DNA of 15,793 bases, from positions 1 through 15,793 of the forward strand of contig JAFZPS010000018.1 of NCBI GenBank assembly GCA_017550205.1, given 5' to 3'. The notes under the pieces were generated by a model, which ran no database searches, had not been told where the DNA came from, and worked only from the letters and a program-made list of their open reading frames with translations. The translations under genes were made by a program, and so were the position numbers. This DNA comes from Bacilli bacterium (GTDB lineage: Bacteria > Bacillota_I > Bacilli_A > RF39 > UBA660). This document shows, in pieces, positions 2,442 to 12,608 of the stretch; within the stretch, counting starts at the first letter, position 1, and every line of letters begins with the position of its first letter.

Positions 2442-2693
2442 ATGAATAAATATGAGTTTAATATATATGAACAAATTTCTAGAAATATAAAGAAATATAG
2501 AAACTTAGCAGGTATTACTCAAGCAGAACTTGCTGAACGTGTTGGGGTTAGTCATGAATTCATTAGAAGAAACGAATCTAAGAAAGGTAAGAAGTCTTTC
2601 TCAGTAGATACTGTATGGAAAATATCAGTAGCTTTAAATATTGATCCTGGTAAGTTATTTGAAATAGATATGGATGAATTAATAAACCAATAA
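2442..2693 (+). CDS. small Cro/C1-type helix-turn-helix regulator
   Basis: This 83-residue protein is essentially one XRE-family DNA-binding domain. A helix-turn-helix occupies about residues 24-45 (TQAELAERVGVSHEFIRRNES), followed by the supporting helices SFSVDTVWKISVALNIDPGKLFEID. There is no partner domain, so it probably binds DNA as a dimer. GGAGG lies 6 bases before the ATG. It is transcribed divergently from dinB, with 120 bases between, and converges on the AAA ATPase gene. The target is unknown; autoregulation or control of the adjacent divergent promoter is possible. It does not look like a phage fragment, because its neighbours are chromosomal. Confidence 0.85.
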   Translation: MNKYEFNIYEQISRNIKKYRNLAGITQAELAERVGVSHEFIRRNESKKGKKSFSVDTVWKISVALNIDPGKLFEIDMDELINQ

Positions 2694-4060: not shown

Positions 4061-4834
4061 CTAGTTTGTTACTAAAGGTTTATTATAATCTAGTCTCATC
4101 TTATCTGCTATTGTAACAATAAATTCTGAATTAGTTGGTTTAGCTTTATCGATATCTACACTATGTCCAAAGATATCTTCCATTAGATCCCAGTTACCTC
4201 TATTCCAACTTACTTCTATTGCGTGTCTTATAGCTCTTTCAACCCTTGAAACAGTCGAATCAAACTTCTTAGCTATTTCAGGATATAATTCTTTTGTTAT
4301 ACCTCCTGCGATATCAGGTTTTTTATATACTAAAGTAATTCCTTCTCTAATATAATGGTAGCCTTTTATATGAGATGGTACTCCTAATTCATGTAGTGTT
4401 TTTGTAATTGTGATTTGTAGGTTATTATGAAACAAATCCAAAGATTCTCCTTTAGTAGATTTTCTAGTTAAAGCTTTTACTTTATTATATAAATCATCTA
4501 ATTCAAATGGTTTAATCATAAAGTAACTAGCTCCTAAAGATGCTACTTTGCTTATCATATCTTGTGTATTATATGAAGTTAATACAATTACTTTCTTATC
4601 TATCTCATTATTATATAAGTATTCAAGTACTGCGATACCATCTTTCTTAGGCATTACTAAATCTAATACCATAATATCAAACTCATTAGAGTGTTTATTT
4701 ATTACTGATATTGCCTCTTCCCCATTACTTGCTTCTAGTACTACTTCTACATCTTCTACATCTTTAAAATAACGCTTAACCATACCAACTAAACTTTCGT
4801 TATCATCGACAACGAATAATCTTGTTTTGTTCAT
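4061..4834 (-). CDS. spo0A: sporulation master regulator Spo0A
   Basis: This response regulator controls entry into sporulation and other stationary-phase programmes. The N-terminal receiver domain (about 1-120) has the acidic pocket Asp10-Asp11, phosphoacceptor Asp58 in MVLDLVMPKKDG, Thr86 in VLTSYN and Lys108 in MIKPFE. The C-terminal Spo0A-specific DNA-binding domain (about 140-257) shows the conserved stretches LGVPSHIKGYHYIREGI, TVSRVERAIRHAIEVSW and KPTNSEFI. Length (257 residues) and domain order match the family, and all key residues are present, so it should be functional. The ATG has GAGAGGAG upstream. Two exact Spo0A boxes lie upstream, suggesting autoregulation. It is transcribed separately from tpiA, whose terminator lies about 70 bases upstream. 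Confidence 0.97.
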   Translation of the reverse strand: MNKTRLFVVDDNESLVGMVKRYFKDVEDVEVVLEASNGEEAISVINKHSNEFDIMVLDLVMPKKDGIAVLEYLYNNEIDKKVIVLTSYNTQDMISKVASLGASYFMIKPFELDDLYNKVKALTRKSTKGESLDLFHNNLQITITKTLHELGVPSHIKGYHYIREGITLVYKKPDIAGGITKELYPEIAKKFDSTVSRVERAIRHAIEVSWNRGNWDLMEDIFGHSVDIDKAKPTNSEFIVTIADKMRLDYNKPLVTN

Positions 4835-9576: not shown

Positions 9577-10578
9577 TTTAGTCATTAAGTATTTAGCTGT
9601 TCTAACCATTTGAGCAGTATAACTCATTTCATTATCATACCAAGATACAACCTTAACTAATTGGCGCCCATCTACTTCTAAAATATTAGTAGAAAGTCCA
9701 TCAACTAGAGAACCACAACGTCTACCAATTACGTCACTAGATACGATTGGATCCATAGTAAATTCCATTGTTTCATTAGTATGTGCTTTTAATACTTCAT
9801 TAATTTCTTCAGCTGTAGTGTTTTTCTTTAATTCTAGAGTTAAGTCTACAACAGAACCAGTAGGTACTGGTACTCTCATAGCAATACCATCTAATTTACC
9901 AGCTAAGTTAGGACAAACTAATCCGATTGCTGAAGCTGCTCCAGTAGAAGCTGGAACAATATTTGCTGCACATGCTCTACCACGACGTGCTAAATGTCCT
10001 TTTTTATGAGCTATATCAAGTGAAGCTTGGTCATTTGTATAAGCATGAACTGTAGTCATATAACCTTTAACAATTCCAAATTCTTTATCTAATACATTAA
10101 CTACTGGTGCTAGACAGTTTGTAGTACAAGAAGCTGCACTAATAACTTTTTCATCTCCAGTTAAAATTTCATGGTTAACATTATAAACTATTGTTTTTAA
10201 ATCTCCTTTAGCTGGTGCTGAAATAATAACATGTTTAGCTCCTGCTTCAATATGTTTATTTGCATCTTCTAATTTAGTAAATAAACCAGTACATTCAAAT
10301 ACTACATCGATATCTAAATCTTTCCAAGGCAATACTGCTGGGTCTTTTTCAGCATATACTCTTACCTTTCTATTTCCTACTACTATGTAGTCTCCATCTG
10401 CACTTATCTCATCAATTCTGTAATTTCTATGATTTGTATCATATTTTAATAAATAAGCTAATTGTTCTGCATCAGTTAAGTCATTGATAGCTACTACTTC
10501 AAATTCAGGATTTTCTTCCATTAATCTAAAACATAATCTACCAATTCTACCAAAACCATTGATTGCTACTTTTATCAT
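9574..10578 (-). CDS. gap: glyceraldehyde-3-phosphate dehydrogenase
   Basis: The enzyme oxidises and phosphorylates glyceraldehyde 3-phosphate with NAD to 1,3-bisphosphoglycerate. The Rossmann motif is NGFGRIGR (7-14), followed by INDLTD, consistent with NAD preference. The catalytic Cys151 lies in SAASCTTNCLAP and His178 in TTVHAYTND. STGAA, MRVPVPTG and SWYDNEMSYTAQMVR complete the substrate and cofactor sites. Length (334 residues) is standard. Its codon usage includes more CGT, GCT and GGT than neighbouring genes, as expected for high expression. AGGGAG precedes the ATG. It has its own terminator, and a TATAAT sequence lies about 20 bases upstream of the start, so it forms a single-gene transcript. 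Confidence 0.98.
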   Translation of the reverse strand: MIKVAINGFGRIGRLCFRLMEENPEFEVVAINDLTDAEQLAYLLKYDTNHRNYRIDEISADGDYIVVGNRKVRVYAEKDPAVLPWKDLDIDVVFECTGLFTKLEDANKHIEAGAKHVIISAPAKGDLKTIVYNVNHEILTGDEKVISAASCTTNCLAPVVNVLDKEFGIVKGYMTTVHAYTNDQASLDIAHKKGHLARRGRACAANIVPASTGAASAIGLVCPNLAGKLDGIAMRVPVPTGSVVDLTLELKKNTTAEEINEVLKAHTNETMEFTMDPIVSSDVIGRRCGSLVDGLSTNILEVDGRQLVKVVSWYDNEMSYTAQMVRTAKYLMTK

Positions 10579-10598
10579 TAAATCATCTCCCTAATATT

Positions 10599-10651
10599 AT
10601 TATACATTATTATTATTAATTTAAATAAAAAAAATAAAGAAATAGTGTCAA
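10599..10651 (-). promoter_or_regulatory. probable gap promoter region
   Basis: A perfect TATAAT lies at 10599-10604 on the minus strand, but no good -35 box stands 16-18 bases upstream. A perfect TTGACA at 10646-10651 is too far away to pair with it and has only TTATTT at the right spacing. The stretch between is nearly pure A/T. Which elements are used is uncertain. Confidence 0.45.
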
Positions 10652-10655
10652 ATCT

Positions 10656-10690
10656 TTGGAAAAAATTTTTCTTTTTTCTAATAATATAGT
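10656..10690 (+). promoter_or_regulatory. possible promoter of the 25-codon ORF
   Basis: TTGGAA (10656-10661) is followed 17-23 bases later by overlapping -10-like sequences (TAATAA at 10679-10684, TATAGT at 10685-10690). Neither pairing is close to consensus, so this is a weak call. It rests mainly on the strong ribosome binding site and ORF downstream. Confidence 0.35.
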
Positions 10691-10761
10691 AGAGGGTAGT
10701 TTGAAGATGCTTTTCCTTTCGAAGGCCAGTGGGTTTGGTTGAATGGTAAGGAGGTGAAATT

Positions 10762-10839
10762 ATGACTATTAGAGAGAAATCTTTATATGCCATTATCTTC
10801 CTTCTATTTATTTTAATAGGAATACTATTATTTAAATAG
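10762..10839 (+). CDS. 25-residue hydrophobic peptide, candidate type I toxin
   Basis: A short ORF starts with MTIREKSLY, continues with an unbroken hydrophobic segment of about 16 residues and ends ILLFK. That is one membrane-spanning helix with a charged N-terminus and a single terminal Lys. It is preceded by AAGGAGGTG with 7 bases to the ATG, one of the best ribosome binding sites in the window, which argues against chance. The size and pattern recall holin-like or Fst/TxpA-like membrane peptides of Gram-positive type I toxin-antitoxin loci, but I see no certain family match. In the same transcript, 10705-10714 (AGATGCTTTT) is exactly complementary to 10842-10851, just after the stop. TTCCTT at 10713-10718 could pair with the ribosome binding site. 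A converging small RNA covers the 3' end. The toxin role is inference. Confidence 0.55.
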   Translation: MTIREKSLYAIIFLLFILIGILLFK

Positions 10840-10915
10840 AAAAAAGCATCTGAAAATGATTTTTCAGATGTCTAACTTAATGGAAAGGTGTCTGGAGTAT
10901 CAGACTGTCCTCTCT
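10839..10915 (-). ncRNA. candidate small antisense RNA converging on the 25-codon ORF
   Basis: On the minus strand a promoter (next entry) predicts a start near 10915 and a terminator hairpin ends near 10839, giving an RNA of about 77 bases. It has two visible stem-loops: CAGTCTG/CAGAC around 10890-10905, and the terminator. It would be fully complementary to the region after the plus-strand ORF, as in convergent type I antitoxins such as RatA or the par RNAII. No reading frame is evident in it. The alternative is that this is merely the 3' untranslated end and terminator of the kinase gene upstream. Confidence 0.4.
10846..10870 (-). terminator. terminator on the minus strand
   Basis: A perfect 10-base stem, CATCTGAAAA with TTTTCAGATG (10861-10870 with 10847-10856), has a 4-base loop and is followed on the minus strand by C and six Ts (10845-10840). 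It can end both the candidate small RNA and read-through from the kinase gene. On the plus strand it has no T-run. Confidence 0.75.
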
Positions 10916-10921
10916 ACTTAT

Positions 10922-10950
10922 ATTGTATTATATTTGTTTACTTTTGTAAA
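10922..10950 (-). promoter_or_regulatory. promoter of the candidate small RNA
   Basis: TTTACA (10945-10950) and TACAAT (10922-10927) are separated by exactly 17 bases on the minus strand, immediately after the kinase stop codon. No protein-coding gene follows before the terminator at 10846-10870, so the promoter points to a short RNA. Confidence 0.55.
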
Positions 10951-10952
10951 TA

Positions 10953-12608
10953 TTATTCATGGAAATAACTTCCACCTATGAATTCTCTTATAGTTGCATC
11001 TTCTGGGATACAATCTGCTGAGATTGGTAAGAATAATCTTAAGAAATTAATTAATCTTTTAGCATCTTCATAGTATGGAGAATCTGATTCTACTGAATAT
11101 AATAATGGCTCTACATATGTTTTTAATACACCTATTTCATATATAGCAGCAGAATTTATGATAGCATCATTCTCATCTTGATATGGGAAAATCCATTTTT
11201 CTTCACCTTTTCTTACATTACCCCAATGTGATAATGTGTGTTCTACTGAGTAACCTCTTGTTCTATTATCCCTTACTATTCTTCTTAATAATCTATTATC
11301 ACTTGTGGATATACGATTATGATTATCAATATTTAATTCAGTTAATGGAGAAATATAAATCTTATATTTTCTATCTCTAGGTATATTAGTTAATACTTTA
11401 TCATCTAAAGCATGTATTCCTTCGATTATTAATATATCATCGTCTCCTAATTGTAGGTCATTTCTAAATTCTTTTTCTCCTAGAGTAAAGTTAAATGTAG
11501 GAATAAGTATTTTTTCACCTTTTAATAATTCTCCTACTTGAGTATCAAATAGTTTTAAATCTACTGCTTCTAAGCATTCAAAATCATATTTACCATCTTC
11601 ATCTTTAGGAGTATCTACTCTTTCTACAAAATAATCATCCATACTTAGTGCTTTTGGATGTAGTCCAAAAGATTCTAAATACATTGATAATTTACGTGAT
11701 GTAGTTGTCTTACCTGAAGATGATGGTCCTGCTAGTAAAACTATTTTTATTCTATCTCTTTTACTATTAATATCTTTAGCTATATCTAATAATCTACTAC
11801 TTTGTAGAGTTTCATCTATTTTTATTAAATCATTAATCTTTCCACTAGATACAACTCTATTTAAATCAGCAGATGTTGCTACATTCATTAATTTAGCCCA
11901 TTCTTTATATTCTGTATATGCATCAAACATACCTATATGATGTTTATATTTAGGTATTTTATCATTTATATAAACAGTTGGAAATCTTAATACAAAACCA
12001 TTTGTTTTTAGATAAGTTAAATCAAAATCTTTAACTTGTCCTGTAGACATAGGCATTGGATTAAAAAAGAAATTATATATATTACCTAATCTATAGATTG
12101 AAACATAACTATTAGTATTATATTTCATAGTTTCTGCTTTTACTTGATCACCTATTTCTTTAAAATAATTAATTGCTTCTATTCTATCTACAGTTAATCT
12201 TGTAATAGGCATATCTTTTTTAATTATTTCTTTCATTTCATTTTTAATTAATTCAAGTTTTTCTTCAGTTAGTTTGAATGTAGTTAAGAAATATATTCCT
12301 TTATCTATAGAGTGTTGGATAATAACATTAGCTTGTTTTCCAAATAATCTTTTTACGGCATATAAAAGAATAAATGTTAAAGCATTAACATGTGTTCTAT
12401 TACCCTCGCAAGAAGTTAAATCCAAGAATTCTATTTCACAGTTTTCTTTTAATCTATAAGATAATTCACATATACGATTATTAACTCTTGCTAAAAGAAT
12501 TGGATATTTATGTTCATCCTGATGTTCTGAATAAATTTCTTGAAGTGTAACATCTTTTGTATACTTATATTTTTGACCGTTTATAATAACTTCAATAGTA
12601 TCTATCAC
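10953..12608 (-). CDS. uridine kinase-like nucleoside kinase with ThrRS-like N-terminal domains
   Basis: This protein of 551 residues belongs to a Bacillota family. It joins an N-terminal TGS-like domain (about 1-65) and a threonyl-tRNA-synthetase second-domain-like region (about 66-200) to a C-terminal P-loop kinase of the phosphoribulokinase/uridine kinase type (about 285-500). Walker A is GPSSSGKTT (294-302), followed by LSMDDYFV and LIIEGIHAL, typical of uridine kinases. The synthetase-like part reads GNRTHVNALTF, lacking the His pair of the editing site, and there is no aminoacylation core, so it is not a tRNA synthetase. Phosphorylation of uridine or cytidine is the likely reaction, and the role of the N-terminal domains is unknown. 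The start is GTG at 12608 with GGGGTGG upstream. It is divergent from clpP. Confidence 0.85.
   Translation of the reverse strand: MIDTIEVIINGQKYKYTKDVTLQEIYSEHQDEHKYPILLARVNNRICELSYRLKENCEIEFLDLTSCEGNRTHVNALTFILLYAVKRLFGKQANVIIQHSIDKGIYFLTTFKLTEEKLELIKNEMKEIIKKDMPITRLTVDRIEAINYFKEIGDQVKAETMKYNTNSYVSIYRLGNIYNFFFNPMPMSTGQVKDFDLTYLKTNGFVLRFPTVYINDKIPKYKHHIGMFDAYTEYKEWAKLMNVATSADLNRVVSSGKINDLIKIDETLQSSRLLDIAKDINSKRDRIKIVLLAGPSSSGKTTTSRKLSMYLESFGLHPKALSMDDYFVERVDTPKDEDGKYDFECLEAVDLKLFDTQVGELLKGEKILIPTFNFTLGEKEFRNDLQLGDDDILIIEGIHALDDKVLTNIPRDRKYKIYISPLTELNIDNHNRISTSDNRLLRRIVRDNRTRGYSVEHTLSHWGNVRKGEEKWIFPYQDENDAIINSAAIYEIGVLKTYVEPLLYSVESDSPYYEDAKRLINFLRLFLPISADCIPEDATIREFIGGSYFHE

Follow-up and report, generated by a model that had tools for sequence, protein, structure and literature searches.

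An intergenic locus beside a kinase gene in the window, by which is meant the whole 15,793-nucleotide stretch of DNA that was analysed, probably encodes a type I toxin-antitoxin system of a previously undescribed family, a reading in which we infer transcription, toxicity and antitoxin action from the DNA. This reading is supported by the sequence of the locus, by its conservation, by covariation, and by selection on its open reading frame (ORF). As predicted, the plus strand would produce an mRNA of roughly 225 nt that encodes a 25-residue, single-helix membrane peptide, and a second, convergent transcript of about 75 nt, the antisense RNA, would end just past the stop codon of this message, being by its position the exact complement of the mRNA 3′ UTR. 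The locus is also predicted to have a long stem formed by the 5′ leader of the mRNA with its own 3′ UTR, a feature absent from the first-pass annotation of this DNA. The parts of the locus are collected in Table 1.

Table 1. Parts of the candidate toxin-antitoxin locus, in window coordinates
Feature	Position	Strand	Basis
Candidate peptide-mRNA promoter, TTGGAA-18-AATAAT	10656..10685	+	Pattern match, at chance level taken alone
5′ arm of closing stem, in mRNA leader	10690..10716	+	Predicted pairing to 10882-10916 when 10690-10925 is folded
Shine-Dalgarno (SD) sequence, AAGGAGGTG	10748..10756	+	Sequence; predicted to be mostly paired in the window copy
ORF for 25-aa hydrophobic peptide, candidate toxin	10762..10839	+	Translation, profile matches, pS versus pN
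Antisense terminator, directly 3′ of the ORF stop	10841..10870	-	Hairpin 10870-10847 plus T tail; conserved placement
Predicted antisense RNA of about 75 nt, candidate antitoxin	10840..10915	-	Interval between promoter and terminator
3′ arm of closing stem, in mRNA 3′ UTR	10882..10916	+	Complementary to the 5′ segment of the predicted antisense RNA
Antisense promoter, TTTACA-17-TACAAT	10922..10950	-	Pattern match; same hexamers and spacing in relatives

The 25-codon hydrophobic ORF with its SD sequence, and the minus-strand promoter and terminator with T tail that the first-pass annotation had described, are all present in the window, and the ORF translates as MTIREKSLYAIIFLLFILIGILLFK. Promoter patterns occur at chance level in positions 9800-12000 (14 found, compared with 14.5 expected in shuffled sequences), and terminator patterns number 2 compared with 0.4 expected, so it is their conservation in other copies that raises the window promoter and terminator above chance. 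For example, the window-type antisense promoter, with both hexamers and a spacing of 17, is found in copies L111, L112, L115, L116 and L137 and partly in L114, and TTGGAA or TTGGGA followed by CTAATAATATA also lies upstream of copies L112, L113, L115 and L116, and of L137 with one change. In many copies a minus-strand −10-like box is seen by eye outside the 3′ arm, with a small hairpin of variable sequence between them. Since no plus-strand terminator was found in the peptide region of the window, we infer the 3′ end of the peptide mRNA; a plus-strand T run lies farther downstream in only 35 of 50 copies.

In a sample of 288 genomes from a single order of uncultured Bacilli, a profile of the peptide matched 107 at E<=0.01 and 96 at E<=1e-4, with none to 13 matches per genome; Candidatus Onthousia faecavium (genome G023; L025) is among the positive genomes. 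Matches at E<=1e-4 were also obtained in 17 of 395 genomes of a class sample and in 7 of 392 of a phylum sample, all of them already positive in the order sample. At the profile sensitivity used, the family was thus seen in this one order only. DNA searches of whole genomes placed the element at other sites in G001, G002 and G003, and further DNA searches found relatives of the element in 8 of 59 genomes (E<=1e-5) and in 9 of 99 genomes (E<=1e-6).

Comparisons between copies used 50 loci, made up of 19 ORF copies and 32 best-scoring ones (not a random draw) minus L118, which has a short flank. L150, where the match lies inside a longer frame as judged by eye, was omitted; L154, L155, L158 and L160 repeat places already covered, L137 was read and lies outside the 50, and L119 and L120 are outside the analysis. 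A set of 18 copies excludes L111, L113, L114, L117, L118 and L148, which are cut by contig ends or degenerate, and a set of 45 copies used for pairing tests excludes L163, L168, L172, L181 and L188, in which an end, the start or the frame is lost. In L117 and L148 the ORF is likewise broken or lost and the 3′ part is retained. Some copies are arranged in tandem, including a near-identical pair in L144 (G051; positions 451-666 and 768-981) and three copies in L152 (G098; positions 1011-2122), one of which has a different type of arm from the commoner type found in the other two. The presence of multiple copies per genome, tandem copies and broken ORFs is as expected of toxin loci.

Two observations concern the surroundings of individual copies. 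In genome G024, L140-L142 (L122, L128 and L132) have about 384 bp of upstream flank in common at 86-90% identity, and each adjoins a divergently transcribed gene for a paralogous protein (369-372 aa, with an N-terminal hydrophobic stretch), so the neighbour gene and the element may have been copied together in this genome. In addition, L137 (G001) and L114 (G003) have, by eye, the same downstream flanking gene sequence, and this site therefore looks inherited; the 5′ part of the element is missing from L114.

Among 15 copies with 78-base ORFs, out of the 18, pS was 0.49 and pN 0.20 (105 pairs), and dN/dS of the window copy ranged from 0.10 to 0.53 against the 14 others. These values indicate that the peptide ORF is under purifying selection, and the change seen in this conserved ORF is mainly synonymous. 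Residues M1, R4, E5, I12, L14 and L15 are invariant in a peptide alignment of 16 rows. The window peptide consists of one hydrophobic stretch, with a best 15-residue hydropathy of 3.42, and the same quantity averages 3.56 across the 50 peptides (lowest, 0.97).

Selection of this kind fits any useful peptide, and toxicity is a presumed property here, so the ORF might instead encode a non-toxic small membrane peptide, such as a regulator of a membrane complex, that is tuned by an antisense RNA outside of any toxin-antitoxin system. We regard this as unlikely, though it is the strongest of the alternatives, since a peptide whose matches number anywhere from 0 to 13 in a genome, which occurs in tandem and broken copies, and has a window copy at a site shared with no other is unlike a housekeeping partner protein. 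A toxin-antitoxin locus is the preferred reading of the peptide gene.

The second component of the proposed locus, the antisense RNA, is marked by its terminator. When terminators were scored as a plus-strand A run followed by a stem of at least 6 pairs, with shuffled sequences scored alike, 46 of 50 copies had a minus-strand terminator immediately 3′ of the stop codon, compared with 2.3 expected in shuffles, and the four copies without one are degenerate. This A-run rule replaced an earlier one based on the longest hairpin, which gave 41 of 50 and missed the real hairpin in several copies. The flank of the window copy has no sequence in common with the other 49 copies at E<=1e-8, and together with the recurrence of the terminator this argues that the terminator belongs to the element. 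The convergent layout that had been proposed, with an antisense RNA over the 3′ UTR of the peptide message, thus travels as a unit. The predicted antisense RNA folds (positions 10840-10916) with a z score of −5.1.

The peptide mRNA is itself predicted to be highly structured. Plus-strand positions 10690-10925 fold at −70.9 kcal/mol, far better than shuffled sequences (z −4.7), a result of base pairing between the 5′ leader and the 3′ UTR. In the 18 copies, pairing of each leader with its own 3′ arm averaged −39.8 kcal/mol compared with −27.7 kcal/mol for swapped arms, and in the 45 copies −40.9 compared with −31.6 kcal/mol, in a swap control that ignores the relatedness of the copies. In 9 of 18 rows the leader pairs best with its native 3′ arm; in L140-L142, all from one genome, the own arm pairs less well than several foreign ones.

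Compensatory changes offer support of a second kind for this closing stem. RNAalifold predicted 64 pairs from the 45-copy alignment, 35 of which changed on both sides, and 15 of 29 pairs had two-sided changes in a tool-made alignment of the 18 copies in which the outer helix was left unaligned. Across the 27 pairs of the closing stem, 1048 of 1215 cells were paired, compared with 965 (maximum, 990) when the 3′ halves were dealt anew among copies 300 times, and two-sided changes numbered 90, compared with 30 (sd 7.6, maximum 53) in the 300 dealt sets; the structure tested was derived from the same alignment, and dealing, like swapping, ignores relatedness. The number of closing-stem pairs with any two-sided change was 19 of 27 (dealt mean, 11.6), a count that the best dealt set equals. 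Six copies (L151, L152, L153, L156, L159 and L170) carry the other arm motif, and across arm types the leader pairs worse than within them, with the 3′ arm and with the 5′ half of the terminator alike. Therefore, three segments of the element change together.

Taken with the layout of the two RNAs, this structure suggests how the locus would work. The SD sequence of the message would be mostly paired and the 5′ leader would close the message by pairing with the 3′ UTR of the same mRNA, and the antisense RNA would most likely bind the 3′ UTR and lead to decay of the double-stranded RNA, by RNase III on analogy with TxpA/RatA. When the antisense RNA is in short supply the message would survive, and once it is opened or trimmed the peptide would be made and would harm the membrane. 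It is also possible that the mRNA carries, in its 5′ leader, an imitation of its own antitoxin, so that the message would be closed in cis and destroyed in trans by the real antisense RNA; the leader and the antisense RNA have similar 5′ sequences and would target the same site in the 3′ UTR. We advance this imitation tentatively, as a proposal that could fall either way.

Competition of the leader and the antisense RNA for the same 3′ UTR is also what would be expected of an activating antisense RNA, one that takes the 3′ UTR, frees the leader from the closing stem and permits translation. The predicted accessibility of the SD sequence, expressed as unpaired probability over positions −15 to −7, argues against it. 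For the full mRNA this value was 0.30 in the window copy and averaged 0.20 over 45 copies, and with the 3′ UTR covered the mean was 0.14; none of the 45 copies rose by more than 0.15, and 6 fell. Activation is accordingly most improbable; the unraised accessibility in these predictions fits a decay-type antitoxin such as RatA, the mode of action preferred here.

The position of the window copy beside the kinase gene bears on two further explanations. The adjoining kinase has close relatives (best identity, 91%), and the element was absent beside the kinase in the 21 kinase loci that were read. In all 80 kinase loci, BLASTN with the region yielded nothing beyond short, scattered matches (best E, 0.002), and tblastn with the peptide at E 50 gave weak matches only. 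In L001 and L003 the kinase stop codon is followed at once by a hairpin and T run of its own, and by eye the window has none there. An element that is repeated, has inverted ends and is missing from this site in L001 and L003 could be a small element, either transposable or of the structured-RNA kind, that carries the ORF only incidentally. This is more doubtful still than an activating antisense RNA, since the ORF is under purifying selection, the arms stay paired through compensatory changes, and the same minus-strand terminator recurs at the stop codon.

Because the element replaces the kinase hairpin in the window, transcription of the kinase would continue into the antisense RNA and stop at the antisense terminator, which probably also ends the kinase mRNA. 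The alternative offered in the first-pass annotation, an unrelated small membrane peptide next to the kinase's own terminator, draws on this same lack of another kinase terminator here, and it can be set aside because the terminator recurs with the ORF at sites that have no flank in common with the window. As a separate observation, positions 10915-10953 of the window show that the kinase stop codon adjoins the antisense promoter directly, with no terminator between them, so read-through from the kinase could add to the antisense RNA. Elsewhere in the window, two genes were observed by eye: one for an 83-aa helix-turn-helix-like regulator (2442-2693, plus strand) amid mainly minus-strand genes, and one for a 257-aa response-regulator protein (4061-4834, minus strand), which resembles the sporulation regulator Spo0A. 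A read-through into the antitoxin similar to that considered for the kinase has been suggested for parEF0409 (PMC7472228).

Among known type I systems, the closest in layout are TxpA/RatA, BsrG/SR4 and BsrE/SR5 of Bacillus subtilis, which are reported to combine a small hydrophobic toxin with an antisense RNA at the mRNA 3′ end, as is proposed for the locus described here. The placement of the predicted antisense RNA over the 3′ end, as in TxpA/RatA, is shared by the 46 copies that carry the terminator. The txpA SD sequence is described as paired and unchanged by RatA binding, with decay occurring via RNase III (PMC7430163). According to the same source, the B. subtilis antisense RNAs are 222, 180 and 163 nt long, compared with about 75 nt predicted here, and TxpA, BsrG and BsrE have 59, 38 and 30 aa, compared with 25 aa here (PMC7430163). 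A further difference from the B. subtilis systems is the 5′-3′ closing stem that mirrors the antisense RNA.

IsoA of Helicobacter pylori lies over the 5′ portion of its target mRNA, unlike the antisense RNA predicted here, which lies over the 3′ UTR and has its terminator just past the stop codon. The feature shared with AapA/IsoA (PMC6733600) is a toxin mRNA closed between its 5′ and 3′ ends, by prediction and covariation in the present case. The likeness extends to SD-masking hairpins, several copies per genome and support from covariation, and the 5′-3′ interaction of AapA is reported to silence the primary transcript until its 3′ end is trimmed (PMC6733600).

The first-pass annotation had likened the locus to TxpA/RatA, BsrG/SR4 and Fst/RNAII, and the comparison stands for the RatA-like antisense placement and fails for Fst in its details. 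Convergent promoters, an mRNA of about 230 nt, a short antisense RNA and an SD sequence in a hairpin, as described for the Fst/par systems of the pAD1 family (PMC7472228), are common to both. Membership in the Fst/par family was rejected on three features: the bidirectional terminator described for Fst (PMC7472228) is absent, as a T-rich plus side was seen in none of the 46 terminators; direct repeats that would allow the antisense RNA to pair with the translation start are also absent, since in the window its pairing with the leader and start codon does not exceed chance (z −0.27; mean z of leader pairing −0.98 in 45 copies, with 7 of 45 below −2); and the PXXXG(C) motif occurs in 0 of 50 peptides. 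The best reading is therefore of a locus that is RatA-like in antisense placement, AapA-like in its 5′-3′ closed mRNA, and not Fst.

No convincing match to the locus or its peptide came from Rfam, Pfam, NCBIfam or PHROGs. At the gathering score, Rfam returned nothing in the window or in 15 loci, and three low-scoring hits close to the ORF (E 0.16 to 4.2) were taken as chance. No Pfam or NCBIfam model reached its cut-off for nine peptides of the family, PHROGs gave only matches of E>0.3 for 2 of 4 peptides, and the weak matches in these three collections (E of 0.055 at best, with no hit reaching a curated cut-off in cases where there is one) were likewise taken as chance. In phages and plasmids, searches for distant DNA relatives gave short matches, none spanning 80% of the query, and tblastn with the peptide gave nothing at E<=10. 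Three exact patterns, which fit the commoner arm type and not the window copy, had 0 matches each in viral contigs. A covariance model of the antisense RNA, with no more than 7 pairs, was set aside.

A search of literature titles and abstract openings, in a comparison that did not include T1TAdb and the Fozo 2010 survey, found no such family named, and the literature searched yielded nothing on toxin-antitoxin systems in this order of uncultured Bacilli. The claim of novelty rests on this search and on the lack of an Rfam, Pfam, NCBIfam or PHROGs family. The type I toxins of clostridia are reported to share no sequence relationship with other known toxins of this type (PMC6563280).

Type I toxin-antitoxin families are reported to be hard to find by homology and to be known from few phyla (PMC12390103), and the family described here is frequent in one order of uncultured Bacilli. 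It provides a natural set of many copies, some of them in tandem with different arms (L152), that can serve as a testbed for the evolution of antisense specificity. If the leader does imitate the antitoxin, arm motifs that change together in the leader, the antisense terminator and the 3′ arm would give copies in the same genome their own specificity. The family would also allow the silencing of one message in cis and in trans to be studied.
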